A DNA stretch of 64,000 nt from Paraburkholderia phenazinium (lineage in GTDB: Bacteria; Pseudomonadota; Gammaproteobacteria; Burkholderiales; Burkholderiaceae). Positions 1-60,318 of the stretch are shown here, one piece after another (within the stretch, counting starts at the first letter, position 1; every line of letters begins with the position of its first letter). The translations under genes were made by a program, and so were the position numbers. Location: assembly GCF_900142845.1 (NCBI RefSeq), contig NZ_FSRU01000001.1, positions 2,604,001-2,668,000 of the forward strand, in the 5' to 3' direction. The notes under the pieces were generated by a model. The model had not been told where the DNA came from and did not search any database. It saw only the letters and a program-made list of their open reading frames with translations.

Positions 1-344
1 CGACGCTGCCGAAGCCGCCTGAAGTCCGCGAATATGTCGACAACAATCAGGCCTACGCCGACCTCGCCGCCGGCCGGATTGCCGCCGTCGCCAACTCGAT
101 GACGAACATCGCCTATGTGGCGAAACAGCGCCCCGAGACCTTTGCCGTGGTGCAGCCGCCGTTCGGCGCCAAGGTGTACTTCGCCTACTGCATGCGCAAG
201 GACCCGGACAGCAAGTCGCTCGACGACGCGTTCAACGCCGCGCTCGTCAAGATGCACGACGACGGGCGGCTCGCGGCCTTGCAGAAGAAGTGGTTCGGCG
301 TCGCGATGGACTCGCCGATCACCATGCCCACGCCGAACTACTGA
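1..344 (+). CDS. Amino-acid ABC transporter substrate-binding protein, C-terminal part
   Basis: This is the last 113 codons of a periplasmic solute-binding protein of the polar amino-acid family (SBP_bac_3); the start lies before the window. The reading frame runs from base 3. The text LAAGRIAAVANSMTNIAYV and the ending ALQKKWFGV are typical of the C-terminal lobe of GlnH/HisJ-like receptors, where the W-F-G element packs near the end. It should capture an amino acid or amino-acid derivative in the periplasm and deliver it to the two permeases that follow 88 bases downstream. The substrate cannot be told from this fragment. Family call is firm; specificity is unknown. Confidence 0.85.
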   Translation, partial: TLPKPPEVREYVDNNQAYADLAAGRIAAVANSMTNIAYVAKQRPETFAVVQPPFGAKVYFAYCMRKDPDSKSLDDAFNAALVKMHDDGRLAALQKKWFGVAMDSPITMPTPNY

Positions 345-389
345 TCTACTGATGCCTTGAAGCGGACGCTGCCGGCTGTATGGTCTTAG

Positions 390-404
390 GCAGGCAGCGC
401 CTGC
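390..404 (+). other. Intercistronic stem-loop
   Basis: A perfect 6-bp stem (GCAGGC/GCCTGC) with a 3-base loop lies between the binding-protein gene and the first permease gene. Such hairpins often protect the binding-protein part of the mRNA, so more receptor than permease is made. That role is inferred only from position. Confidence 0.35.
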
Positions 405-431
405 TGGTCTGCTCTAGCGGGTGCCCGACAC

Positions 432-1082
432 ATGTTCAGCATGCCTGTCTTTCTTCAGGGTCTGCCGCTGCTGCTGCACGCGGCCATCGCCACGGTCGGC
501 ATTTCGCTCACCGGGCTCGTGATCGGCTTCTTCGTCGCGATCGGCGTCTGTTCGGCGCGGCTGTCGGCGCATCGCGCGGCGCGCATGTTCGGCGGCGCGT
601 ATGTGTTCTTCTTTCGCGGCGTGCCGATGCTCGTGCAATTGCTGCTGGTGTACTACCTGCTGCCCTTCGTCGGCATCAACGTGTCGCCGCTCGTTGCGGC
701 GATCAGCGCCGTGTCGCTCTGCTCCGCTTCGTACATCGCCGAAATTTTGCGGGGCGGCTTCCTGAGCATTCCGCCGGGGCAGATCGAAGCCGCGCGCATG
801 CTCGGCATGTCGCCGCTCGACATGCTGCGGCGCATTCAGGTGCCGCAGGCCTTCCGACTGACCTTGCCGTCGCTCGTCAACGAGATGGTGTTGCTGATCA
901 AGGCCTCGTCGCTGATTTCGGTGGTCGGCGTAGCCGAGTTGACCCGCACCGCGCAGAACATCGCCGCCAGCACCTATCGTCCGCTTGAGGCATATCTCGC
1001 CGCGGGGCTGATCTATTTCGTCATCTGCGGGACGCTCGCGCTGGTCGCGCATGGCGCCGAACACCGCTTGCAGCAAGCCTGA
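432..1082 (+). CDS. Polar amino-acid ABC transporter permease (HisM/GlnP family)
   Basis: The 216-residue integral membrane protein is one half of the translocation channel of the uptake system begun by the binding protein upstream. Length and hydrophobic profile match the HisMQ/GlnP family. The EAA loop that docks with the ATPase is visible as IEAARMLGMSPLDMLRRIQ near residue 120. ATG at 432 gives a usual N-terminus running straight into the first hydrophobic helix. The second permease follows after 10 bases, so the two are likely co-translated and form a heterodimer in the inner membrane. Confidence 0.9.
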   Translation: MFSMPVFLQGLPLLLHAAIATVGISLTGLVIGFFVAIGVCSARLSAHRAARMFGGAYVFFFRGVPMLVQLLLVYYLLPFVGINVSPLVAAISAVSLCSASYIAEILRGGFLSIPPGQIEAARMLGMSPLDMLRRIQVPQAFRLTLPSLVNEMVLLIKASSLISVVGVAELTRTAQNIAASTYRPLEAYLAAGLIYFVICGTLALVAHGAEHRLQQA

Positions 1083-1092
1083 GAGCCAAGCC

Positions 1093-1755
1093 ATGCAGCA
1101 ATTCGACCCTACCGTCATCACGCACAACCTGCAGCCGATCGCAGCGGGCCTCGCGACGACCGTCGGCACGTGGGCCGCGGGCGTCGCCATCGGCATCCTG
1201 ATCGGCTTTCTGATTGCCGTGCTGCAACTCTTCTGCGGACGCTGGGTGCGCGGGTTCTTGCGCTTCTATATCGAACTGTTCCGCGGCACGCCGTTTCTGG
1301 TGCAACTCTTTCTGCTCTACTACGGCGGTCCGTCCATCGGCCTCACACTCGAACCGATGACCGCCGGTGTCCTCGGTCTCGGCCTGTACGGCAGCGCATA
1401 TTTTGCCGAGGCGTTCCGCTCGGGCTTCCAGTCGGTGCCGCCCGGCCATCTCGAAGCGGCGTCGTGCCTCGGCCTGTCGCGCTGGCAAGCGGTGCTGCGT
1501 ATTCAGGTGCCGCAGATGCTGGTGCTGATCGTCCCGGCGCTCACCAATCTGATCATCGTGCTCAGCAAGGAGACTGCCGTGCTGTCGATCGTCACCGTGC
1601 CTGAACTGACCTTCGTTCTGACCGGCATCGGCTCGGCCACCTTCGCTTTCGTCGAAACCTTGCTCGCGCTCTGCGTGTGTTACCTCGCGCTCGTCGAACT
1701 CACCTCGCGTGCCGGCATGTGGGCGGAAGCCCGCATTGCGCGGTTCATGGCATGA
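1093..1755 (+). CDS. Polar amino-acid ABC transporter permease, second subunit
   Basis: The 220-residue permease of the HisMQ family is partner of the preceding gene. The EAA-type loop reads LEAASCLGLSRWQAVLRIQ, and the protein is hydrophobic throughout. The frame is open further upstream to 1051, but that start would overlap the previous gene by 32 bases. ATG at 1093 (MQQFDPTVI) gives a normal length and is preferred. The ATPase gene begins 19 bases after its stop. It acts in the inner membrane in ATP-driven import. Confidence 0.9.
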   Translation: MQQFDPTVITHNLQPIAAGLATTVGTWAAGVAIGILIGFLIAVLQLFCGRWVRGFLRFYIELFRGTPFLVQLFLLYYGGPSIGLTLEPMTAGVLGLGLYGSAYFAEAFRSGFQSVPPGHLEAASCLGLSRWQAVLRIQVPQMLVLIVPALTNLIIVLSKETAVLSIVTVPELTFVLTGIGSATFAFVETLLALCVCYLALVELTSRAGMWAEARIARFMA

Positions 1756-1774
1756 ACGAACTCCGGATTGATCG

Positions 1775-2650
1775 ATGAATGCCCTTGCCGATATGCCCAC
1801 CTCCGAACCCACCGCCACCACGACCGCCGCACAAGCCAGCTGCGCGCCGCTGATCGAAGTACGCGACCTGCGCAAGCGCTTCGGCGAAGTCGACGTGCTG
1901 CGCGGCATCGATCTGGAGATCGCCAGATCCGAAGTGGTTTGCATCATCGGCCCGTCGGGGTCCGGCAAGAGCACCTTGCTGCGCTGTCTCGCCGCGCTCG
2001 AAACCTACGATCAGGGCGATGTGCGGATCGAAGGCGAACTGCTCGGCTACACCGAGCGCAACGGCAAACGCATGCGGGCCTCGCAAGGCGAGATCAACCG
2101 CGTGCGGCGCAACGTCGGCATGGTGTTCCAGCAGTTCAACCTGTGGCCGCATATGACGGCGCTCGGCAATGTGATGGAAGCGCTTCTGCGCGTGCGCCAT
2201 CTGCCGCGCGACGACGCACGGCGCCGTGCCCATGCGATGCTGGAGACCGTGGGGCTCGCGCACAAGGCGGACGCGTATCCGGCCAAGCTCTCCGGCGGCC
2301 AGCAGCAACGCGTGGCGATTGCGCGAGCGCTGGCCATGGAACCGCACATCATGCTGTTCGACGAACCCACCTCGGCGCTCGATCCCGAACTGGTCGGCGA
2401 GGTGCTGCAGGTGATGAAGCAACTCGCCCGCGACGGCATGACCATGGCGGTCGTCACGCACGAAATGGGCTTCGCCGCGCAGGTCGCCGACAAGGTGGTG
2501 TTTATCGATCAAGGCCGCATTGCAGTGGCAGGCAAGCCGCGCGAAGTCTTTCACGATGCCGGGCAGCCGCGCCTGCGCCAGTTCCTGCAGAATTACTTCG
2601 ACCGCAACGCCTTCTGGACGCAAGGCGCCGATGAGCCGGGTTCGCCATGA
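1775..2650 (+). CDS. Polar amino-acid ABC transporter ATPase
   Basis: The 291-residue nucleotide-binding subunit powers the import system. Walker A is GPSGSGKST (residues 59-67), the signature is LSGGQQQR (172-179) and Walker B is IMLFDE (192-197), followed by PTSALDP and the switch-histidine context VTHEMGF. These are hallmarks of the HisP/GlnQ type. The first 26 residues before LIEVRDLRK are an Ala/Thr-rich extension unlike most family members; a later start is possible but no better ATG was seen. Its stop overlaps the start of the GntR gene in an ATGA, so transporter and regulator are translationally coupled. Confidence 0.92.
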
Positions 2651-3369
2651 ACACCGCGCGCTACGAACAGGTCAAGAGCCACATCCGCCGCACCATCGAC
2701 TCGGGCGCGCGGCAGCCCGGCGACCGCATCCCGTCGGAACTGGACCTTGTCGCAGCGTTAGGCGTGTCGCGCATGACCGTCAACCGTGCCTTGCGCGAAC
2801 TCGCCGAGGAAGGGCTCGTCACGCGCGTCTCGGGTGTGGGCACCTTCGTAGCGGAGGCGAAACCGCAATCCACCTTGCTGATGATCGCCCACATCGGCGA
2901 CGAGATCCGCTCGCGCGGTCATGAGTACAGCTACGCAACGCTGCTCAAGCAACGGGAGACCGCACCGGTTCTGGTGTCGAACGCATTGGGCCTGGCGCCG
3001 GGCACCTCGGTGTTTCACGTGATCTGTGTCCACCGCGAAAACGGCCTGCCCGTGCAGCTCGAAGACCGTTACGTCAATCCAGCCACGGCGCCGGAATTCT
3101 TGCTGCAGGACTTCGCGGCGATCCGGCCGTCCGAGTATCTCTACAACGTCGTGCCCGTGCACGACGTCGAACATGTCGTCGACGCGGGCCTGCCTACTCG
3201 TGACGAAGCCGGGTTACTCGAAATCCGCGCAGAGGAGCCGTGCCTGACGCTGGTGCGGCGCACATGGACGAGCGGCGTGGCGGTGACGTTCGCCCGCTTC
3301 GTGCATCCGGGTTCGCGCTACCGGCTGGGCTGCCGGTTCGCGCCGGACCTCTCGCAGCGCCAGGGCTGA
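2647..3369 (+). CDS. GntR-family regulator, HutC subfamily
   Basis: The 240-residue repressor-type protein has an N-terminal winged helix ([10 protein letters not shown] to [10 protein letters not shown], about residues 5-75, with recognition helix region [12 protein letters not shown]) and a C-terminal UTRA effector-binding domain ending RYRLGCRF. HutC-type GntR proteins sense small ligands such as urocanate and repress nearby catabolic or uptake genes. This one is coupled to the ABC transporter by an ATGA overlap, so it probably controls that operon. It is clearly homologous to the second GntR gene transcribed toward it (3396-4154). The ligand is unknown. Confidence 0.88.
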
Positions 3370-3395: not shown

Positions 3396-4154
3396 TCAGA
3401 CGTTGCCCGCCAGATGAAAGCGCGAGGCCGGATGCCACAGTTGCACCGACGTCGCCACCGCTTCGCCGACCCACGTGCGGCGCCACAACAGCAGGCACGG
3501 CTCGCCAATCTCCATCAGCAGGTGCCGGCGCACATGCGCGTCGGGCTTTTGCGCGTAGATGCGAAACTCGGCGCGCTGGATCGGCGCGAGCCGCACCATG
3601 TAGTGATTCGGCGTTTCGAGCGTGAAGTCCTGCCGCAGATACTCGGGGAACACCTTGGGATTGACGTAGCGGTCTTCGTACTGGATCGGCTCGCCCTCTT
3701 CGCTATGCACGATGCGCGAATGAAACGCGGGGCCGGCGGACAGGCCGAGCGCATCGAGCGCCTGTGCATCGTCGCTCGGTTCGAGCGCCAGCACGTGCGC
3801 CATGTGCCGATGGCCGCGCGCGGCGATCTCGTCGGCGATGTTGCGAATCTCGAGAACCGTCGATTCATAGCGCTGCGGCGCGACGAAAGTGCCCGAGCCC
3901 TGCACGCGCGTCAACACGCGTTCGGCGGTCAGCTCGCGCAGCGCGCGCGACACCGTCATGCGCGCCACGCCGAATTCCTTGACCAGTTCGGTCTCCGATG
4001 GAATCAGGCCGCCCGGCTTCCAGTCGCCTTCCGAGATCCGCTTCACGACATAGCGCTTGATCTGCTCGTAGGCCGGCGTGGCTTTGACAGGCGCCTCGCT
4101 GGCATTGCCCGGGCGGAGCTGGGTGGTGTCGGATGGCGCGTTATTTAGAGTCAT
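3396..4154 (-). CDS. GntR-family regulator, HutC subfamily (second copy)
   Basis: The 252-residue protein has a GntR winged helix (AYEQIKRYVV through GSGTFVAPQR, about residues 23-95) and a UTRA domain with the typical YEDRYVNP element. ATG at 4154 (MTLNNAPSD) is chosen. The frame is open further upstream, but that extension is Arg/Cys-rich and out of keeping with the family. It lies 88 bases downstream of the lyase-like gene and is probably last in the minus-strand operon beginning at 9149. It may bind the TGTCTAGACA sites before that operon (inference). HutC, the histidine-utilisation repressor, is the best-known relative, and the lyase neighbour fits an imidazole or amino-acid ligand. Confidence 0.87.
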   Translation of the reverse strand: MTLNNAPSDTTQLRPGNASEAPVKATPAYEQIKRYVVKRISEGDWKPGGLIPSETELVKEFGVARMTVSRALRELTAERVLTRVQGSGTFVAPQRYESTVLEIRNIADEIAARGHRHMAHVLALEPSDDAQALDALGLSAGPAFHSRIVHSEEGEPIQYEDRYVNPKVFPEYLRQDFTLETPNHYMVRLAPIQRAEFRIYAQKPDAHVRRHLLMEIGEPCLLLWRRTWVGEAVATSVQLWHPASRFHLAGNV

Positions 4155-4242
4155 ATTCACGTCGACCTCGTGGGTGGTACGCAATACGCCAATGCGCCGG
4201 CAGGTAGGCCGGCCGCACCGGCTCGTGGGGCGCTCGCCCCGT

Positions 4243-5868
4243 TCATGCCGCCGATTGCAGATCTCGCCCGGCGGCGTCAGGCAAATGGGCAGCCGTTGGG
4301 TTCGCTTCGCCGGCCGTTGCATAACCGGTGTGCCCGACTACGCCGGCGGCGGCTGGCCGCATCTTACCCGGGTTCGGCAGCGGCGGCGGCTCGGTGTCCG
4401 CAATCATACGGAACGCGAGCGCCATGTCCTCGGCGAGCGGCCGGTCGTCGCGATACGTCGGCACGAGACTGCGCACGCCGCGCCAGAGCGAATCGGTGTA
4501 CGGTGCGCGCGCTGCATCGAGCGTCTGCAGATCATAGGCCTGGGATGCCGCGAGCAATTCGACTGCCACGATGCGTCCGGCGTTGTCGACGATTTCCAGC
4601 GCCTTGAGCGCCGCCGGCGTCGCGTGACACAGATGGTCTTCCTGCAGGCCGGAGGTGATACCGCCGTCCAGACTCGCGGGCATCGCGAGGCGGCGGTTTT
4701 GCGCGACGAGCGAGGCCGCGGTGTACTGCGCAATCATGAAGCCCGAACAGGTGCCGCCCGGCTCGGCGAGAAACGCCGGCAGGCCGCTGACCAGTGGATT
4801 GACGAGGCGGTCGAGGCGGCGCTCGGCCATCGCCGCCACCTGGGCAATCGCCGTGGCGAGGCTGTCCATCGCCAGCGCGATCGAGGCGCCCACCGCATGC
4901 GCCTGCGAATAGACGCGCGGCGCTTCGGGCGTACCGGCGACGATCGGATTGTCGGTGATCGACGCCAGTTCGCGATTGACGACTTCCGCCGTCGCGCTCA
5001 GCACGTCGCGCGCCGCGCCGTGCACGTGCGGGATGGTCCGCATGCTCAGCGGGTCTTGCGTACGACGGCCCACCGCCGCGGCCAGGATGCCGCTCTCGGC
5101 AAGCGCGCCGCGCATTCTTTCGCCCACCACGTTCAGTCCCGGCGAGATCCGCAACGCCAGCGATTCGGCGTCGAACGCCGCCAGTTGGCCGCGCAGGTTC
5201 TCGAAGCTCATGGCCGCCACCGCGTCGGTCCAGTCGAGCAGCCGCGCGGCGCGCGCCAGCGCCAGCGCCGCGAGTCCCGTCACGCACGGCGTGCCGTTGA
5301 CGAGGCTAAGGCCCTCCTTGGCATCGAGCACCAGCGGCTCGAGCCCGAGCCGCTGCAGGGCCTCGCGGCCGCTCAAGCGCTCGCCGCGATAGCGCGCATG
5401 GCCCTCGCCGATGCACACCAGCGCGATATGCGCCATATGGCTCAGATAGCCGACCGAGCCGAACGCCGGCACTTCGGGCAGACAATCGGCATCGAGCAGC
5501 GCCACCAGCTGCTCGGCGACCGCGAGCCGGATGCCCGAATGCCCGTGGGCGAAATTGTTGAGCGCCGCGGCCATGATGGCGCGCGTTTCGGCGACGCCGA
5601 GCGGCGTGCCGACGCCCACCGCATGGCTCATCAGGATATTGCGCGACAGCGTGCGCTGCTCGGACGGCGACACGATCACATCGCACAAGGCGCCCACGCC
5701 GGTATTCACGCCATAAGCGCGAATCCCACGCTCGACGATCTGTTCGACGAGGACATGCGCCGCCGCAATGCGCGCCCGCGCATCGGCGGAAAGCTCGAGC
5801 GGCTCGCCTGCGGCCACGGCCGCAACCTGACGCCAGTCGAGAGGACGATCGGAACGAATGACAGCCAT
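4243..5868 (-). CDS. Histidine ammonia-lyase-family protein lacking the MIO triad
   Basis: The 541-residue protein aligns by eye with histidine/phenylalanine ammonia-lyases over most of its length. Recognisable blocks are YGVNTGVGAL (52-61), NG at 191-192, EPGGTCSGFMIAQ (369-381) and QEDH (409-412). In active lyases the sequence GSVGASGDLAPLxHMA supplies Ala-Ser-Gly, which cyclises into the MIO electrophile. Here it reads GSVG-Y-LSHMA (137-146), so the triad and its neighbours are absent and no frameshift is seen. The QDPY tyrosine is Leu (QDPLSMR, 271-277). A Pro/Ala-rich tail extends it about 30 residues past usual length. Start ATG 5868 lies 11 bases after the ATPase gene. Function is open: a pseudo-lyase, a ligand-binding protein or an enzyme with other chemistry. 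Confidence 0.85.
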   Translation of the reverse strand: MAVIRSDRPLDWRQVAAVAAGEPLELSADARARIAAAHVLVEQIVERGIRAYGVNTGVGALCDVIVSPSEQRTLSRNILMSHAVGVGTPLGVAETRAIMAAALNNFAHGHSGIRLAVAEQLVALLDADCLPEVPAFGSVGYLSHMAHIALVCIGEGHARYRGERLSGREALQRLGLEPLVLDAKEGLSLVNGTPCVTGLAALALARAARLLDWTDAVAAMSFENLRGQLAAFDAESLALRISPGLNVVGERMRGALAESGILAAAVGRRTQDPLSMRTIPHVHGAARDVLSATAEVVNRELASITDNPIVAGTPEAPRVYSQAHAVGASIALAMDSLATAIAQVAAMAERRLDRLVNPLVSGLPAFLAEPGGTCSGFMIAQYTAASLVAQNRRLAMPASLDGGITSGLQEDHLCHATPAALKALEIVDNAGRIVAVELLAASQAYDLQTLDAARAPYTDSLWRGVRSLVPTYRDDRPLAEDMALAFRMIADTEPPPLPNPGKMRPAAAGVVGHTGYATAGEANPTAAHLPDAAGRDLQSAA

Positions 5869-5879
5869 GATGACGATAC

Positions 5880-6671
5880 TCAGTTCGCAGTACGGTGGTG
5901 GTGGCTCGAGACGAATTGCTTGAAACGCTCGGACTTGAGTTCGCCGAACACCTCGTCGGGCGTACCGTCCGCTTCGACCTCGCCTTGATGCAGGAACATC
6001 ACGCGGTTCGACACATGGCGCGCAAAGCCCATTTCGTGCGTGACGACCAGCATGGTGCGGCCTTCTTCCGCCAGCGAGCGCATCACGCGCAAGACTTCGC
6101 CGACCAGTTCCGGGTCGAGCGCCGAAGTCGGCTCGTCGAACAGCATGACCTTCGGATGCATCGCCAGCGCCCGCGCAATCGCCACGCGCTGCTGCTGGCC
6201 ACCCGACAGATGCGCCGGATAATGGCCGCGCTTTTCCGCGAGACCGACCTTGGCGAGCAGCGCTTCGGCTTCTTCGACGGCCTCGGCGCGGCTGCGTTTT
6301 TGCACGCGCATCGGACCTTCGATCAGGTTCTCGAGCACCGTCATATGCGACCACAGGTTGAAGTTCTGAAACACCATGCCGAGTTGCGAGCGGATGCGGT
6401 CCACCTGGCGGCGGTCGCTCGGCTGCATCTTGCCGTCGCCGCGGCGCTTCATCTTGAGTTCTTCGCCGGCCAGCGCGACCGAACCGTCATCGGGCGTTTC
6501 CAGCAGGTTCAGGCAGCGCAGGAAAGTGCTCTTGCCCGAACCGCTCGCGCCGAGGATCGAGATCACGTCGCCCTGGTGCGCGTCGAGCGAGATGCCCTTG
6601 AGGACGTGGTGGTCGCCGAACGACTTGTGAATGTTCTTGACCGACAATGCAACGGGTGCCGTAGCGTTCAT
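5880..6671 (-). CDS. Polar amino-acid ABC transporter ATPase (HisP/GlnQ type)
   Basis: The 263-residue nucleotide-binding subunit has Walker [10 protein letters not shown] (residues 41-49), signature LSGGQQQR, Walker [14 protein letters not shown] and the [12 protein letters not shown] switch region. ATG at 6671 (MNATAPVAL) is chosen because GGAG lies just before it; the frame is open to 6710 but that would run into the previous gene. It energises the two permeases encoded immediately upstream in the same operon. It is closely similar to the ATPase at 1775-2650, including the insert before VRRN/IRSQ, which points to two related transporters. Confidence 0.92.
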
Positions 6672-6696
6672 GTGATTCTCCGGAATGAGCGGCCGT

Positions 6697-7449
6697 TCAG
6701 TGCGCGGCACGACGTGCTTCGGTGGTGGCGGAAACCGGGCGCGAGGCGACCTGGACCGGCACCGCGCGCAGATGACGCGACAGGCGCACTTCGAGCAGGC
6801 CCAACAGGCGCACGATCACGAAATTGAGGAACAGGTAGATCAACGCGGCGCAGATAAAAACTTCAGTTGTCCGATAGGTTTGCTGGATGATCTGCTGCGC
6901 GACGCCGGTCACTTCCCACACGGTGACGAGACTCGCGAGCGCCGTCGACTTCACCAGCAACACCGCTTCAGTGGAATACGCGGGCAGGCACTGGCGCAGC
7001 GCAATCGGTCCGATCACGCGGCGCAGCAACGCGAAGCCGGACAGGCCGATGGCATAGCCCGCTTCGATCTGTCCAACCGGCACGGCCATCAGGCCGCCGC
7101 GGATGATCTCGGCGGTATAGCCGGCCGTACACAAGGCGAGCGAGAGCACCGCGCACATATACGGTTCGCGCAGCACCGGCCACAGGAAACTCTCGCGTAT
7201 CACGCCGAACTGGCCGAGTCCGTAGTAGACGAGAAACATCTGGATCAGCAGCGGCGAGCCGCGAAACACGAGGATATAGGCGCGTGCGAAGCGGTTCGGC
7301 AGCCAGTGCGGCGAGACCCGCATCGTGACGATCACGAGCGACAGCAGACCGCCCAGGATCAGCGACGAGAAGAACAGGCCGAGTGTGGTCGGCACGGCGC
7401 CGAGCAACTGGCGCAGCGTGTCGAACAGGAAATCGAAGTCGATATGCAT
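6697..7449 (-). CDS. Polar amino-acid ABC transporter permease (HisM-like)
   Basis: The 250-residue inner-membrane permease has EAA loop [19 protein letters not shown] and the usual five-helix hydrophobic pattern. Motif [15 protein letters not shown] near residue 80 is standard for the HisMQ family. ATG at 7449 follows the preceding permease by 15 bases. With that gene it should form the heterodimeric channel. The C-terminal 25 residues are polar and Ala/Arg-rich, probably cytoplasmic. Substrate is not predictable beyond amino acids or related compounds. Confidence 0.9.
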
Positions 7450-7464
7450 GATGGCGCGGCCTCG

Positions 7465-8187
7465 TCAGTTGCGGGCGAAATTGCGGCGGAAGGACCGGCC
7501 TACGCGGGCTTCCGCGTGGTTGAAGACCCGGTTCGAGATGCTCGTCATCACCAGGTACAGGCCGCCGCCCACGACGAAGAACGTGAAATATTGATGAGTC
7601 GAACCCGCGGCAACCTGGCTCACGCGCAGCAGTTCGGCGAGGCCCGTGACCGAGATCAGCGCGGAATCCTTGAGGCTCAATTGCCAGACATTGCCGATGC
7701 CCGGCAACGCGAAGCGCAGCACCTGCGGGATCAGGATGCGGCGCGCCATGGTCAGCGTGGGCATGCCGATGGAACGGGCCGCTTCCAGTTCGCCGCGCGA
7801 CACCGCCAGCACCGCCGCGCGGTACACCTCGGCCTGGTACGCGCCGGAGATCATCCCCACCGCGAGCGCGCCGATCACGAAGGGCGGCACGCCGACGAAG
7901 CCGTCGGCGCCGAACCACTGGCCGATCGTCGTCACCAGCGTCGAACCGCCGAAATAGAAAAGATAGATGACGAGCAGTTCGGGCACGCCGCGAAACACGG
8001 TCGTGTAGAAGTCGCCGACGATGCGCAGCGTGCGAAAGCGCGACAGCTTCGCCGCCGCCACCAGTGCGCCGAACACCGCGCCGACGGCGAGCGCCGCGAG
8101 CGTCAGCGCGACGGTCATCAAGGCCGCCAGCAGCACGACGCCGCCCCAGCCATCCGGCCCGAAGCCGAGCATCCCGATCAGAGCCAT
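7465..8187 (-). CDS. Polar amino-acid ABC transporter permease (HisQ-like)
   Basis: The 240-residue permease has FRGVPELLVIYLFYFG (about residues 64-79) and EAA loop LEAARSIGMPTLTMARRIL, both conserved in HisQ/ArtQ-type subunits. It starts with ATG at 8187 and is separated from the binding-protein gene by 101 bases that contain a strong stem-loop. It pairs with the next permease in the membrane. It belongs to the minus-strand operon: binding protein, permease, permease, ATPase, lyase-like protein, GntR. Confidence 0.9.
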   Translation of the reverse strand: MALIGMLGFGPDGWGGVVLLAALMTVALTLAALAVGAVFGALVAAAKLSRFRTLRIVGDFYTTVFRGVPELLVIYLFYFGGSTLVTTIGQWFGADGFVGVPPFVIGALAVGMISGAYQAEVYRAAVLAVSRGELEAARSIGMPTLTMARRILIPQVLRFALPGIGNVWQLSLKDSALISVTGLAELLRVSQVAAGSTHQYFTFFVVGGGLYLVMTSISNRVFNHAEARVGRSFRRNFARN

Positions 8188-8288: not shown

Positions 8289-9149
8289 TCAGGGCGTGAC
8301 GTCCGTCTTGAACCACTTCACGGAGAGCTTCTTCACCGTGCCGTCTGCAAGCGCCGCGGCAATCGCGGTGTCGAACTTCGCCCTCAGGTCGGCGTCCTGC
8401 TGGCGGAACGCGAGGCCTTCACCCGGACCCCAGATCGGGCCACCGATCTTCGGTCCGGCCATCACGATCGAAGCGGTCTCTTTCTTGTCCGTGTTGGCGG
8501 CGTAGTAGGTCACGTCGTCGAAGGAAGCGTCGATACGGCCGTTCGCCAGATCGAGGTCACGCTCCGGCGAGGTCTTGTAGACGCGGATCGTGGCGACGTC
8601 CTTGAAGCCGTCGTTGATGAACTTGGTATAGACCGTGCCCGACTGGATACCGATGGTCTTGCCCTTCAACTCCTTACGCAACGAGTCGACGGTCGGTTGG
8701 TCGGTCTTCGGGTCGCCGGTCAGCTTGAGGACGGCGCTGGTCGGACCGGCCTTCGGCAGGATCTTGGTGTCGGTCACGGCGAAGGTGGCCGGCGTAGCCG
8801 CATAAGGACGCGAGAAGGCGATGATCTTTTCGCGCTCCGGCGTGATCGAAATGGCGTCCATCAGCACGTCGAACTTGCCGGCTTGCAGACCCGGGATCAT
8901 GCCGTCCCAATCCTGGGCGACGAGGTTGCACTGCAACTGGATGCGCGCACACAGGTTCGCCACCAGTTCCGGTTCGAAGCCGCCCAGCTTGCCGCCCGGC
9001 AGCGTCAGATTCCACGGTGCATAGCCGCCTTCCAGCGCGATGGTCACCGTTTTCCATTCTTTCGCCTGCACAGGGGCCGCGAGAATAGTCGCTGCGCCGA
9101 GGACGGCGCCAATCAATGCTTTAGCCAACGTAGTGCGCTTTACCTTCAC
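8289..9149 (-). CDS. Amino-acid ABC transporter substrate-binding protein (ArgT/HisJ type)
   Basis: The 286-residue periplasmic receptor has an N-terminal signal peptide (positively charged KVKRTTLAK, hydrophobic ALIGAVLGAATILAA, likely cut after VQA). The mature protein carries the SBP_bac_3 landmarks EGGYAPWNLT, GFEPELVANLC and WDGMIPGLQAGKFD. The start is GTG at 9149: AAAGGAG sits about 7 bases upstream and no ATG is available. It is first in the operon and so defines the promoter region from 9150 leftward. E-G-x-Y-x-P-W matches receptors for basic amino acids and opines; histidine-like ligands are possible. Confidence 0.9.
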   Translation of the reverse strand: MKVKRTTLAKALIGAVLGAATILAAPVQAKEWKTVTIALEGGYAPWNLTLPGGKLGGFEPELVANLCARIQLQCNLVAQDWDGMIPGLQAGKFDVLMDAISITPEREKIIAFSRPYAATPATFAVTDTKILPKAGPTSAVLKLTGDPKTDQPTVDSLRKELKGKTIGIQSGTVYTKFINDGFKDVATIRVYKTSPERDLDLANGRIDASFDDVTYYAANTDKKETASIVMAGPKIGGPIWGPGEGLAFRQQDADLRAKFDTAIAAALADGTVKKLSVKWFKTDVTP

Positions 9150-9523
9150 GTCGAAACTCCTTTGATTGAGGGAACACCATCCAGCTAGTCGAGCGACTGA
9201 TTCACTCGCCTAAATTGACTAGACAAGTCTGCATGAGTAAAAAAATCGTCGCAAGCACAATTGTGAGATTTCACCGAAATCCTCGGGTAAGCCCTATAAA
9301 TAAAGGCCCATGGCGCGATTTCGAGGCGAAAGGAGATTGAAAAATACTGTGCCACGCACGCTGCTTTGGTGCATTTTGTCTAGACAGGTTCACTCAACGA
9401 CGCACGATGCATCGCCCTGGTGCAAGGGTGCACAGGGGTGGATCGAGACGCCCGGCCTGGGTCTGGGGACGTGAGGATTGAGAACTTTAAGACGTTCGAG
9501 AGATGACGCCCGCCACCCGCCCG
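9150..9523. promoter_or_regulatory. Regulatory region with paired TGTCTAGACA-type operators
   Basis: The 374-base gap lies upstream of the minus-strand amino-acid transport operon and downstream of the convergently placed methyltransferase gene. It holds no gene. Two near-identical inverted repeats occur 150 bases apart: TTGACTAGACAA (9215-9226) and TTGTCTAGACAG (9376-9387), the second with a perfect 10-bp palindrome core. Short T-G-T-N-x-A-C-A palindromes are what HutC-subfamily GntR repressors bind, so these are likely sites for one of the two GntR proteins. A clear sigma-70 promoter could not be fixed. Confidence 0.6.
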
Positions 9524-10305: not shown

Positions 10306-11130
10306 TCAGTGCGACTCCCGGATGCGCTCGAACAGACGCGGCACGTCGAACTCGCCGACCGGCAAGCCGAACCGTTCGCCGAGGCATGCCGCGAGGTCGG
10401 CGGCCGTTCCGATCACCTGTTCACTGACCACCTGGCCGTCAGCGGCGCGCTCCGTCAAACGGTCGTTGCGCAGCGCGAGGCGCCCATGCGGCAAGACCCG
10501 GCAGACAATCAGGTTGCTCACGAAGAGCGACGCCGGCCAGGTGGAGGTGTACCAGTTCGACACCTCATAGTCGATCCACTCGGCGCGCTGCTGCTCGAAG
10601 CGGTAGGCCTTCATCCAGCCGTCGCCCGACTGCACTTCCAGGTCGAGCGCGCCATGCGACGCATCCGCGAGGCGAAACGCCTCGAGCGGCGTGGCTTGCG
10701 GCATGCCCGCCTCGAGACGCAAGGGCGCGGTCAGCGTCGCGCTGCCGAACCCGACGTCTGCGAGCCAGGGCGTGTCGTCGATATCGACGCGCAGCAGCAT
10801 ATGGGTGCGAGCCGTGACGGCGTCCGCCTCACGCCCCCACAACACCCGCGCGATCAGAGGCGTCACGCGAAAGCCCAGTTGCATCAGCGCATGGGCGAAC
10901 ACCCGGTTCTGCTCGAAGCAATAACCGCCCCGCCGGCGCTCGAGCAGCTTGTTGACGACGGCCGGCAATTCCAGCGAGACCGTGCGGCCGCTCAGCGGGT
11001 CGAGATTTTCGAAGGGGATCGCGAGCGGATGCAGGCGGTGCAGTTCGCGCAGCACGGCGAGCGTCGCCGTGCGCGGACCCTCGTAGCCGATGCGGGAAAA
11101 ATACAGGTCGAGGTCGAGTGCATTTGACAT
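10306..11130 (-). CDS. nat: Arylamine N-acetyltransferase
   Basis: The 274-residue cytosolic enzyme of the NAT family moves an acetyl group from acetyl-CoA to arylamines or hydrazines. The cysteine-protease-like triad is visible: Cys71 in RRGGYCFEQN, His110 in RTHMLLRV and Asp125 in WLADVGFG, close to the canonical 69/107/122 spacing. PFENLDPL near residue 40 is a further family mark. Length is normal. It is a single gene; the 533-base region upstream leads to the iron cluster and shows no obvious shared regulation. Confidence 0.93.
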   Translation of the reverse strand: MSNALDLDLYFSRIGYEGPRTATLAVLRELHRLHPLAIPFENLDPLSGRTVSLELPAVVNKLLERRRGGYCFEQNRVFAHALMQLGFRVTPLIARVLWGREADAVTARTHMLLRVDIDDTPWLADVGFGSATLTAPLRLEAGMPQATPLEAFRLADASHGALDLEVQSGDGWMKAYRFEQQRAEWIDYEVSNWYTSTWPASLFVSNLIVCRVLPHGRLALRNDRLTERAADGQVVSEQVIGTAADLAACLGERFGLPVGEFDVPRLFERIRESH

Positions 11131-11663
11131 GAGTGTGGGTCCTGGGAACGACGGTAGCGACTATATCAAGCGCACCTGCGCCGGCGACCAACGAAAGCAA
11201 ACGAATGTGTCGATTCATGGACAGATCTCCTGACAACAAGCTTTCGTTGCATTCGGGCACTTCAACAGCGCATCCCGGCGCCGCTTCGATGCATCTGTCA
11301 CACGAGCTTTCGCGCGAAGGACCAGCGCGCCGTCCACCCTCCCGGACAAGCTCACCGCTCGCGCATCAGCACCGACAGGCGTCGCAAAACAGCCCTTCAA
11401 TTTCATACTATTTAATTACGCTTAAATTACTTTTAAATAACAAAAAGTCAAATAAAAGACAGAAAACGTAAAAATATCAATTACACCCCAGTAATATTGT
11501 TGCGAATCGTTCTCATTTGTATTGACGCACCTATTGGGCATGCGTACGATCTCGACATTGCTGCCTGAGGCGTCGCGAACCGCAGCAGCAATGCGCGGGA
11601 TGCCGGCTATCGTCACCCAAAGCAGATAGCCGGAACAGTCGATACAACACAATAAGGATTTCG
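11131..11663. promoter_or_regulatory. Intergenic region with Fur-box-like site before the iron cluster
   Basis: This non-coding stretch becomes strikingly AT-rich around 11400-11480 in an otherwise GC-rich genome. At 11501-11515 it contains TGCGAATCGTTCTCA, whose complement TGAGAACGATTCGCA resembles the 7-1-7 Fur box form TGATAAT-N-ATTATCA and is close to sites seen in beta- and gamma-proteobacteria. The first gene downstream begins at 11664 with AAGGA in front. Repression by Fur when iron is plentiful would fit the ferric transporter genes that follow. Short open frames in the region have no supporting features. Confidence 0.7.
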
Positions 11664-13190
11664 ATGAAGTTCGCCCAGTCCAAACGACGCGCGTCAGACG
11701 CGCGTCCATCCAGGAATGCTACACCGCGCGGTCGCGCCGCACGCAAGCCAGGTCTGCCCTCGATTCGCAGCGTGGCGCTTTACACAGCATTCGCCTGGGC
11801 CTCGCTGACGGCGGCCGCCGCGATGGCCGAGACCAATCCCGACGCCGCGCCGAACGACGCGCCCGAGGCCGACCTGAGCATTCAGGCGCAGCCCACCAGC
11901 CAATGGACCGGCGTGTGGAACCGCGGCAACCTGCTCGGCGACATCGGCGGCCTGCGTCCGTGGCTCGGCAAGTACGGCGTGACGTTCGGCCTGACCGAGA
12001 CCAGCGAATATCTTTACAACGCGCGCGGCGGCCTGAACACGGGCGGCACCTATGACGGCCTGACGACGGCCACGGTCCAGGTGGATACGAAGAAGGCATT
12101 CGGCCTGCCGGGCGGTCTCTTCAACGTCAGCGCGCTGAACATCCACGGCCAGAATCTGAGCGCCGACAATCTCGGCACGCTGAATACCGCGAGCGGGATC
12201 GAGGCGCAGGATACGACCCGTCTGTGGGAGCTGTGGTACCAGCAGTCCTTCCTGAACAACAAGATGGACGTCAAGGTCGGTCAGCAGAGTATCGATCAGG
12301 AGTTCATCGGCAGCCAGAGCGCCGGCCTGTTCGTCAATACGATGTTCGGCTGGCCCGCGCTGCCGTCGTACGACATGCCGTCGGGCGGCCCGGCCTACCC
12401 GCTCGCCGACCTCGGCGTGCGCGTGCGCGGCCAGATCACGCCGACCTTGACCGCCCTCGCAGGCGTGTTCGACGGCGACCCGCTCGGCAACAATCCGAAC
12501 AATATCAGCGGCACGAATTTCAACCTGCACACCAGCGCGCTGTATATCGGCGAACTGCAGTACGCGTTGAACCAGCCGGGCGACGGCGAGATGGTCGGCG
12601 CCGGCAACACCGGCCTGCCCGGCAGCTACAAGCTCGGCTTCTGGTACAACACCGGCAGCTTCGCCGACGAGTACTACGACAACACCGGCGTGTCGCTGGC
12701 GAACCCGAATTCGACGGGCGTCGCTGCGCAGCATCGCGGCGACTACAGTTTCTATGCCGTGGCAGACCAGATGGTGTGGCGTCCGGATCCGGACGAGCCG
12801 CGCAGCATCAACGTGTTCGCCCGGGTGATGGGCGCACCGGGCGACCGCAACCTCGTCGACTTCTCCGCCAACCTCGGCGTAGTGATGAAGGCGCCGTTCG
12901 CCGGACGCGACAACGACACCGTGGGCCTCGCACTGACCTACATCAAGGTCAGCAATAGCGTGGAGAACCTCGATCTCGACAATCGGGCCTTCCTGAACAG
13001 TCCGTACGGCGTGCGCACGCAGGAAACCACCCTGGAAGCGACCTATCAGTTTCAGGTCAATCCGTGGTGGCAGATCCAGGCCGACGCGCAATACACGTTC
13101 AATGCCGGCGCCGGACAGAACCCGAGCGACCCGACTCAGGCGCTGCGCAACACTCTTGTTGTCGGCGTGCGAACCAACATCACGTTCTGA
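11664..13190 (+). CDS. OprB-family carbohydrate-type outer-membrane porin
   Basis: The 508-residue precursor has a long basic leader followed by hydrophobic VALYTAFAWASLTAAAAMA (residues 35-53), a probable signal peptide cut near MAE. The mature part has the OprB landmarks GNLLGDIGGLRPWLGKYGV, GLTETSEYLYN and the repeated aromatic/Gly beta-strand pattern to a final strand ending NTLVVGVRTNITF with C-terminal Phe. OprB porins are usually 16-stranded channels for sugars. Its position behind a Fur-like box and ahead of iron genes suggests a role in passage of an iron-complex or iron-related substrate. That is inference; it could still be a sugar porin recruited to the operon. Confidence 0.85.
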   Translation: MKFAQSKRRASDARPSRNATPRGRAARKPGLPSIRSVALYTAFAWASLTAAAAMAETNPDAAPNDAPEADLSIQAQPTSQWTGVWNRGNLLGDIGGLRPWLGKYGVTFGLTETSEYLYNARGGLNTGGTYDGLTTATVQVDTKKAFGLPGGLFNVSALNIHGQNLSADNLGTLNTASGIEAQDTTRLWELWYQQSFLNNKMDVKVGQQSIDQEFIGSQSAGLFVNTMFGWPALPSYDMPSGGPAYPLADLGVRVRGQITPTLTALAGVFDGDPLGNNPNNISGTNFNLHTSALYIGELQYALNQPGDGEMVGAGNTGLPGSYKLGFWYNTGSFADEYYDNTGVSLANPNSTGVAAQHRGDYSFYAVADQMVWRPDPDEPRSINVFARVMGAPGDRNLVDFSANLGVVMKAPFAGRDNDTVGLALTYIKVSNSVENLDLDNRAFLNSPYGVRTQETTLEATYQFQVNPWWQIQADAQYTFNAGAGQNPSDPTQALRNTLVVGVRTNITF

Positions 13191-55020: not shown

Positions 55021-55135
55021 GCCTGACGATTACCTACTTTCACACGGGTAATCCGCACTATCATCGGCGTGGAGTCGTTTCACGGTCCTGTTCGGGATGG
55101 GAAGGGGTGGTACCGACACGCTATGGTCATCAGGC
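55021..55135 (-). rRNA. rrf: 5S rRNA
   Basis: Read on the minus strand it starts GCCTGATGACCATAGCG, has the loop text CCCGAACAGG, and ends with the complement of its own beginning (AATCGTCAGGC). These are diagnostic of beta-proteobacterial 5S rRNA, about 115 nt. It is last in the operon, 168 bases after 23S. End points are accurate to a few bases. Confidence 0.95.
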
Positions 55136-55303
55136 ATGACTTGTTGCCGCACTGCTCGAGGAGCAGTACAGCCAATCGGGAAGAAGTAGTTTCTGGTGAT
55201 GCCACCAGAGGGTGAAGCTGTTGGGGTTGTGTTGTTTCCGGCACAACACGTGATCACTCAACCGTGTGCGGGGTTCATCTGAACCACAAGACACACCTGT
55301 TAT

Positions 55304-58182
<2,879 letters not shown>

Positions 58183-58389
58183 CTATAACGGGTGTGTCTC
58201 CTGTCGCATCCACTGGGAATGCAACGCTCGCCACAACCGCTACAGGTTGAGTATTCGTGTTGCGCCGTATTCCAAAGCAATCTTTCGATCACTTAAAAAT
58301 ACATTGATACAATCACAACCCTGATTCACCTACTCGATCACCCATCTCTAAGTGATCTTTCGTGAATCTCTTTACTACTTCTTCCTGAT

Positions 58390-58400
58390 TGTTAAAGAAC
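58390..58400 (-). promoter_or_regulatory. boxA antitermination element in the spacer
   Basis: Minus strand GTTCTTTAACA in the 16S-23S spacer matches the boxA consensus TGCTCTTTAACA recognised by NusB-NusE. It sits about 200 bases before 23S rRNA, as expected for antitermination of rRNA transcription. Confidence 0.7.
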
Positions 58401-58500
58401 GACAGCCGATATCGCAGTTGCCATAACCGCGTATCACTCTGACTGGCTCAATCGCCAATGCATAAAGCTCGGTTAGCACCGAACGCTAGGCATTGAGGAT

Positions 58501-58576
58501 TGGTGGAGGATGACGGGATCGAACCGACGACCCCCTGCTTGCAAAGCAGGTGCTCTCCCAGCTGAGCTAATCCCCC
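58501..58576 (-). tRNA. tRNA-Ala (anticodon TGC)
   Basis: The 76-nt minus-strand tRNA begins GGGGGATTAGCTCAGCTGG and ends with an encoded CCA. The anticodon arm CTGCTTTGCAAGCAG places TGC in the loop. The T arm GTCGGTTCGATCCCG is canonical. It lies in the 16S-23S spacer, standard for this group. Confidence 0.97.
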
Positions 58577-58648
58577 AGTCATGCACAGATAACTTCATCT
58601 GTCTTGATACCCAGGGGTGATCGGTTAGCGCAGCCACCGCAGAAACAG

Positions 58649-58725
58649 TGGTGGGTCTGGATGGATTCGAACCATCGACCCCCGCCTTATCAAGACGGTG
58701 CTCTAACCGACTGAGCTACAGACCC
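58649..58725 (-). tRNA. tRNA-Ile (anticodon GAT)
   Basis: The 77-nt minus-strand tRNA begins GGGTCTGTAGCTCAG and ends with an encoded CCA. The anticodon loop has CTTGATAAG, giving GAT. The TTCGAATCC T arm is intact. It precedes tRNA-Ala in the spacer. Confidence 0.97.
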
Positions 58726-58786
58726 CTGAGTCTGTCTTTTTCACAGCCGATAAGCGTGAGCGCTCAACTTGAACACGTGAGCTCGA

Positions 58787-60318
<1,532 letters not shown>

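Follow-up and report, generated by a model that had tools for sequence, protein, structure and literature searches.

A widespread MIO-less homologue of histidine ammonia-lyase, encoded beside importer genes, as a predicted hercynine trimethylamine-lyase

The window, a stretch of 64,000 nucleotides from Paraburkholderia phenazinium, carries a gene for a homologue of histidine ammonia-lyase (HAL) that has lost the MIO-forming residues and belongs to a widespread MIO-less clade including Pseudomonas hutH1. From the comparisons described below we infer its substrate, product and catalysis: the protein is probably an MIO-independent lyase that converts hercynine (N-alpha-trimethylhistidine) to urocanate and trimethylamine. 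We also lean, slightly less firmly, towards the wider view that this activity is one not assigned so far, namely a MIO-free hercynine lyase apart from ergothionase with which Burkholderiaceae, rhizobia and pseudomonads channel hercynine into their Hut pathway. The chemistry has a precedent in ergothionase; no description of the substrate assignment, the hut linkage or the explanation for hutH1 came up in the open-licence PMC papers searched. If the prediction is true, many proteins now called histidine ammonia-lyase are misnamed, an overlooked source of trimethylamine exists in bacteria of soil and plants, and bacterial consumption of hercynine, the precursor of ergothioneine, becomes defined. 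The second 'histidase' gene of Pseudomonas would likewise be accounted for, and the lyase fold would have undergone an experiment by nature, in which the electrophilic cofactor was dispensed with once the substrate nitrogen was quaternary.

The gene is the fifth of six genes on the same strand, between positions 9149 and 3396, which code for a binding protein, two permeases, an ATPase, the lyase and a HutC-type regulator (Table 1). All six genes of the operon reported in the preliminary description of this DNA, with its transporter and regulator, were thus found. The lyase gene begins with ATG at 5868 and is full length, as had been stated. Residues 137–147 read GSVGYLSHMAH, also in agreement with that description, which took a single Tyr to stand for ASGDLAP. 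The alignment revealed a register slip in the latter point: ASGD is replaced by Tyr, and L146 is still aligned. In P. putida numbering, A142 is changed to Tyr and positions 143–145 are gaps in the window lyase and 22 relatives, the net change in the window lyase being an in-frame loss of three residues (GSVG-ASGD-L to GSVG-Y-L) with L146 and the next -AH- in register with the HAL rows. The Ala-Ser-Gly triad was present in all 20 control HALs, which had not been picked for it, and absent from the window lyase. These controls made up the 27 HAL rows of the alignment together with five sequences selected for the triad and two solved structures, whose processed MIO was rewritten as ASG before alignment. 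With Ala-Ser-Gly gone, the window protein cannot, as judged from its sequence, form MIO, and it is therefore not a standard histidine ammonia-lyase, which upholds the earlier reading. The PF00221 fold of HutH is present, whereas the score against the hutH model TIGR01225 (463 bits) falls below the curated cut-off of 539.15.

Table 1. Coordinates of the lyase operon and associated features in the window
Feature	Position	Strand	Basis
MIO-less aromatic-amino-acid-lyase homologue (hutH1 type), 541 aa	4243..5868	(-)	PF00221 502.7 bits; clade SH-aLRT 100
GSVGYLSHMAH, one Tyr (codon 5446-5448) where canonical HAL has Ala-Ser-Gly(-Asp)	5428..5460	(-)	Alignments
Periplasmic substrate-binding protein	8289..9149	(-)	Nearest solved structures: nopaline- and octopine-binding proteins
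ABC permease (HEQRo_perm_3TM)	7465..8187	(-)	TIGR01726 over cut-off
ABC permease (HEQRo_perm_3TM)	6697..7449	(-)	TIGR01726 over cut-off
ATPase, polar-amino-acid-type ABC importer	5880..6710	(-)	Best model HisP 369 bits, under cut-off 466
HutC-family repressor, last operon gene	3396..4322	(-)	TIGR02018 273.7 bits, cut-off 220, match from residue 85
HutC-operator-like palindrome upstream of operon (ATTGACTAGACAAG)	9214..9227	(+)	Pattern picked after viewing region
Second HutC-operator-like palindrome (TTTGTCTAGACAGG)	9375..9388	(+)	Pattern picked after viewing region

The change at the MIO site is neither a chance event nor an error, since 53 of the 77 genomes sampled within the genus, among them that of the host, have the strict DNA motif of the MIO-less site without any mismatch, and the dN/dS ratios of the gene (NG86) against three relatives were 0.14, 0.25 and 0.24. 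A sequencing artefact or frameshift at this site was ruled out on the same grounds, and the gene is, by these ratios, under purifying selection. Structure prediction, proposed at the outset as a check, confirmed the fold (mean pLDDT 84.9, but 49 for residues 401–410), and the model does not separate HAL from ergothionase. A search with the N-terminal fragment against the PDB returned no lyase match.

Apart from the MIO site, the active site of HAL is largely retained, as had been noted earlier for its other blocks. Y53, H83, N195, Q277, R283 and E414 were common to all 23 aligned clade members, so that the window lyase, which has the fold of HutH (1b8f, 7tqr), differs from it at MIO, Y280 and F329 alone among the active-site positions tested. 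Position 280 holds Leu in 23/23 clade members and in 5/5 ergothionase-type rows, against Tyr in 27/27 HAL rows, while the F329 position is Pro in 17 clade members and Ala in six. It should be underlined that most of the 23 members were found via the Tyr motif, eight of them also via a motif containing E414, so the columns of the MIO-site Tyr and of E414 are partly circular; the other columns are not. The sub-branch of the window has Ala at F329 and SQAHAVG-like letters where the remaining members have SQANPHG (6 versus 17 of 23). Since this loop differs between the window sub-branch and the Pseudomonas branch, substrates may differ inside the clade, and that of the window sub-branch could, going by these letters, be another than in the rest.

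In HAL, Tyr53 acts as the base, Arg283 holds the carboxylate, and His83, Asn195 and Glu414 lie on the imidazole side; the free amine of the substrate attacks MIO and thereby becomes a good leaving group. In the predicted reaction the same residues would keep these roles. A quaternary ammonium group has no lone pair and is already a good leaving group; being unable to attack MIO, it would presumably render this cofactor useless and sterically obstructive. The deletion of Ala-Ser-Gly, together with the change of Tyr280 to Leu as in ergothionase, would suit an elimination of this MIO-free kind.

The clade extends well beyond the host. Among the best 120 of 3971 homologues, the named proteins came from Paraburkholderia or Burkholderia, and the strict DNA motif occurred in 16 of 398 sampled genomes of the phylum. 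A lyase match was obtained in 26 of 150 Burkholderiales genomes, three of which (G000, the host, G119 and G061) had a MIO-less gene beside a canonical copy; one row of the corresponding alignment (L031) was poorly aligned at the MIO site. Scanning the GTDB genomes with clade motifs gave at least 577 confirmed relatives. The 80 listed were mostly from Pseudomonas, the others from Leeia, Pseudogulbenkiania, Duganella, Rugamonas, Janthinobacterium, Polaromonas, Rhodoferax and Serratia. A further 851 plasmid records matched, canonical copies included; the 60 listed (58–77% identity) came from Rhizobium, Sinorhizobium and Burkholderia, and the annotated features under these matches are named histidine ammonia-lyase. 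All three plasmid loci that we opened were MIO-less, with site variants such as GSVGYLTHAAA on pSymB of S. meliloti and GSAGYLTHNAH in R. etli. On pSymB (L198), hutC, hutF and a betaine-type ABC importer precede the MIO-less gene. The clade was thus encountered in Pseudomonas, Burkholderiaceae, Oxalobacteraceae and rhizobial plasmids.

In a tree of 46 rows with the MIO columns removed, 22 MIO-less hut-type rows formed one group (SH-aLRT 100), five ergothionase-type rows a second (99) and 19 HALs a third (88). The window lyase, with its G-Y-L site and three-residue loss, fell within the first. The tree was a quick LG+G4 inference with SH-aLRT support alone, made after ten of 55 rows had been dropped and one added, and the program warned that long branches meet. 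As the tree consists of these three groups, with no outside MIO enzyme, MIO may have been lost once for both MIO-less groups or twice.

Ergothionase is the known enzyme with most in common with this prediction. According to PMC13405746, it releases trimethylamine from ergothioneine and has no MIO, and a Burkholderia ergothionase (BAM63550) is named there. The solved ergothionase of Treponema denticola (PDB 6s7j/6s7q) likewise has the PF00221 fold without MIO and Leu for Y280, and its trimethylamine elimination is the reaction type predicted for the window lyase. The preliminary description, in which a catalyst of new chemistry was one option, had neither this precedent nor the connection to Pseudomonas hutH1; a chemistry different from that of HAL is the option we favour. 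In contrast to these similarities, the window lyase is only 26–27% identical to 6s7j and does not group with it and the thiourocanate-hydratase-linked proteins (SH-aLRT 100 versus 99). Ergothionase-type proteins have the site GSxG-(E/A)(A/G)D, where the window clade has GSVG-Y, a Lys (Q/E-K motif) where 15 of 15 aligned members of the window clade have Tyr, and Ser or Ala at HAL position 195, where the window clade has Asn. By the last two differences, the window clade is not of the ergothionase type, and plain ergothionase identity was rejected after comparison with the ergothionase-type genes of the thiourocanate-hydratase loci described below.

The two kinds of lyase also differ in their company. 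Thiourocanate hydratase (NF058530, E <= 1e-290) was detected in 12 of 249 Burkholderiaceae genomes, and there was no match at this threshold in the host genome (G000). An ergothionase-type gene lay within 20 kb in six of the nine thiourocanate-hydratase loci fetched and was absent in three, whereas the window clade is found with hut genes. In the four of these six proteins whose site was read, it is GS(I/L)GEAD (L199, L200, L202 and L204; three in full and one near-identical copy), and for the one of the six that was compared with solved structures, 6s7j was closest. These data make it unlikely that the window lyase is an ergothionase or an ergothioneine-sulfonate lyase, in which case a 2-sulfur-substituted hercynine would lose trimethylamine and the product would pass to HutU or a relative. 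In favour of this alternative, besides the shared fold and Leu280, an ergothioneine sulfonate pathway is cited in PMC13405746 for Agrobacterium, a relative of the clade-bearing rhizobia. A further MIO-less lyase was observed at 4910–6397 of locus L055, with the site GSLG-AAD and ergothionase 6s7j as its best solved match; the same genome also has a hut-type MIO-less copy, and betaine-type ABC matches occur at 27–2010 of this locus.

To examine the gene neighbourhood, we made a census of 96 loci, comprising the window, 16 further loci and 79 of the 80 listed named loci (L067 was dropped because it duplicates L066). Going upstream on the strand of the lyase, the first recognised gene encoded an importer component in all 96, the window included, and lay within 300 bp in 94. 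The gaps were 1055 bp in L075 and 403 bp in L092. Recognition here means the nearest match to a reference set of 20 proteins (tblastn), so unrecognised genes may intervene; some loci end at contig ends, and L112, which is counted, has a stop codon in the matched stretch. The named loci are mostly from Pseudomonas, being drawn from the 80 listed of at least 577 relatives, and since this genus dominates the sample, 96 of 96 does not represent 96 independent events. By comparison, an adjacent importer (<=300 bp) was seen in none of 20 canonical hutH loci, seven of which have an importer component within 20 kb; these controls are 20 of the 23 other lyase-matching Burkholderiales genomes, in which no MIO-less copy was found.

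The importers were of the QAT (choline/proV-type) ABC kind in 79 loci, of the polar-amino-acid ABC kind in 15, including the window, and BCCT carriers in two. The best models of the importer representatives were choline, glycine-betaine and BCCT, and only the proV subfamily exceeded its specific cut-off; the carrier names therefore denote family-level scores of one representative each. Carriers from three unrelated families thus converge on the MIO-less lyase, and two of these families are typical for quaternary ammonium compounds. The idea that homologues sharing the motif would form a conserved clade with the same neighbours thus held for the clade (SH-aLRT 100) and for the upstream position of an importer (96/96), with importers of different types. 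In the QAT binding proteins of 72 loci, four aromatic motifs, which we take to form the cage of these proteins, were kept in 72, 72, 71 and 72 of 72; they were defined by alignment with the betaine-binding relative 7yle, the second motif being loose.

With regard to the hut genes, HutU was present within about 10 kb in 70 of the 96 loci, HutI in 74, HutG in 73 and canonical HutH in 65, and 78 loci had one or more hut genes; canonical hutH was absent from the locus in 31 and any hut gene in 18. Urocanase was encoded in all 17 MIO-less genomes, as a single copy in 16. Two of the HutU proteins scored 1017 and 945 bits as urocanate hydratase, as opposed to 688 and 663 bits as thiourocanate hydratase with its cut-off of 930. 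Since the two HutU proteins scored are urocanate hydratases by this measure, the product is most simply urocanate, and an imidazole side chain, a quaternary nitrogen and a urocanate product together make hercynine the simplest substrate. HutU, which consumes urocanate, is the usual companion of the lyase. In the proposed pathway, the importer of the operon would take up hercynine, and the urocanate formed from it would be converted to glutamate via HutU/I/F/G. The close relative in L051 (75% identical) has importer, MIO-less gene, HutU, HutD, HutI, HutF and HutG in one locus, with canonical HutH on a separate contig. The 18 loci without a hut gene and the polar-amino-acid type of the window importer count against hercynine. 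The hut-less loci with a betaine-type importer number 13 (L069–L072, L075, L078, L080, L094, L123, L130, L134, L143 and L144) and belong to Duganella, Rugamonas, Janthinobacterium and some Pseudomonas; those with a polar-amino-acid importer are L066, L068, L076, L079 and L112.

Among solved structures, those nearest to the window's binding protein bind nopaline and octopine. Nopaline and octopine carry a substituted alpha-nitrogen, and the resemblance is compatible with an N-substituted ligand, without being proof of one. The protein also keeps an Asp, a further point against hercynine, which aligns by eye with the Asp of histidine-binding proteins such as HisJ that we take to contact the alpha-ammonium group. 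Together with the octopine-type annotation of the importer in R. etli, the resemblance to opine-binding proteins raises the question of whether the lyase removes another N-substituted amine from histidine, such as from N-alpha-dimethylhistidine or an opine like histopine. We consider this very unlikely, as tertiary and secondary amines are, by established chemistry, poor leaving groups without MIO, and most of the examined loci pair the lyase with betaine-type carriers.

Hercynine as substrate may also account for Pseudomonas hutH1. The typical order in this genus is HutU, an NCS1 carrier, a quaternary-amine importer and, last, the MIO-less gene. The review PMC8871633 describes Pseudomonas hutH1 as a histidase gene dispensable for growth on histidine and urocanate as the inducer of the hut genes; it also reports that HutXWV takes part in histidine uptake, which counts against hercynine. 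By motif, tree and neighbours, the HutH1 beside hutXWV falls in the same clade as the window lyase, with the difference that its locus has a betaine-type and the window a polar-amino-acid importer; for P. fluorescens SBW25 the tie is made by gene order and by the description given in that review. We therefore infer that hutH1 is a member of the MIO-less clade and dispensable for histidine because MIO is missing.

According to a 2025 paper (PMC12772324), growth on histidine or urocanate suffers from six hut deletions, one of which is labelled 'hutG (PA5093)', and is restored by plasmids; polarity is thus unlikely for the PA5093 deletion. The numbering given there is PA5098 for hutH and PA5092 for hutI. 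Set against the order HutH, importer, MIO-less gene, HutI and HutG at the P. aeruginosa PA7 locus (L131), these numbers suggest that PA5093 is the MIO-less lyase and hutG the gene after hutI. The label may be a slip; otherwise, the phenotype speaks against a function confined to hercynine. It would also fit a non-catalytic pseudo-enzyme, an option raised in the preliminary description, which would regulate or stabilise HutH in mixed tetramers or sense urocanate or histidine, as would the loss of MIO and the canonical hutH often adjacent in Pseudomonas. However, the six active-site residues kept in 23/23 members and the purifying selection disfavour this option, and an importer gene stands upstream in all 96 loci, with no canonical hutH in 31 of them, so we regard it as quite improbable. 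For the receptor-like role also suggested in that description, no supporting evidence came up.

The predicted hercynine lyase would be controlled by the HutC-family repressor of its operon, and such control fits the induction of hut in Pseudomonas by urocanate, as stated in PMC8871633, although PMC12772324, by its title, reports another HutC ligand in P. aeruginosa. The listed HutC ORF overlaps the lyase gene, and its true start is probably further downstream, at about 4154. A first HutC operator pattern, TTGTNNNNACAA, gave no matches. The pattern CTTGTCTAGACAAG (up to three mismatches) gave two in 64 kb, both upstream of the lyase operon; 23 of 100 shuffles gave as many anywhere in 64 kb. At the start of the host's own hut operon this pattern gave three matches, a number reached by one of 200 shuffles, and in locus L003 none. 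As it was chosen after the promoter had been viewed, the evidence is weak, and HutC operators upstream of the lyase operon are suggestive only.

In the host genome (8.5 Mb, three contigs), the single other PF00221 gene encodes an ordinary HutH with GSVGASGDLAP, and its hut operon is located on a different contig from the lyase. There is exactly one urocanase, and the hut genes in the window are HutC genes only. The genome also encodes a PF10017 histidine-specific methyltransferase (L208, G000:C1:290365-291282, 321 bits), so the host may both produce hercynine and break it down.

Convergent with the lyase operon is a second polar-amino-acid ABC importer operon (window 1–3369 and L003 13298–14344), consisting of a binding protein, two permeases, an ATPase and finally its own HutC-family gene (TIGR02018, 293.8 bits). 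Genes for a 2OG-Fe(II) oxygenase (L003 12191–13414) and an FAD-linked oxidase (about 10794–12180) are divergent from it. Beside the lyase operon, at 10306–13190 of the window, are an arylamine N-acetyltransferase-type gene (PF00797) and a gene for an OprB-family porin (PF04966), and a complete rRNA operon (16S, tRNA-Ile, tRNA-Ala, 23S and 5S) occupies 55021–60318 on the minus strand.
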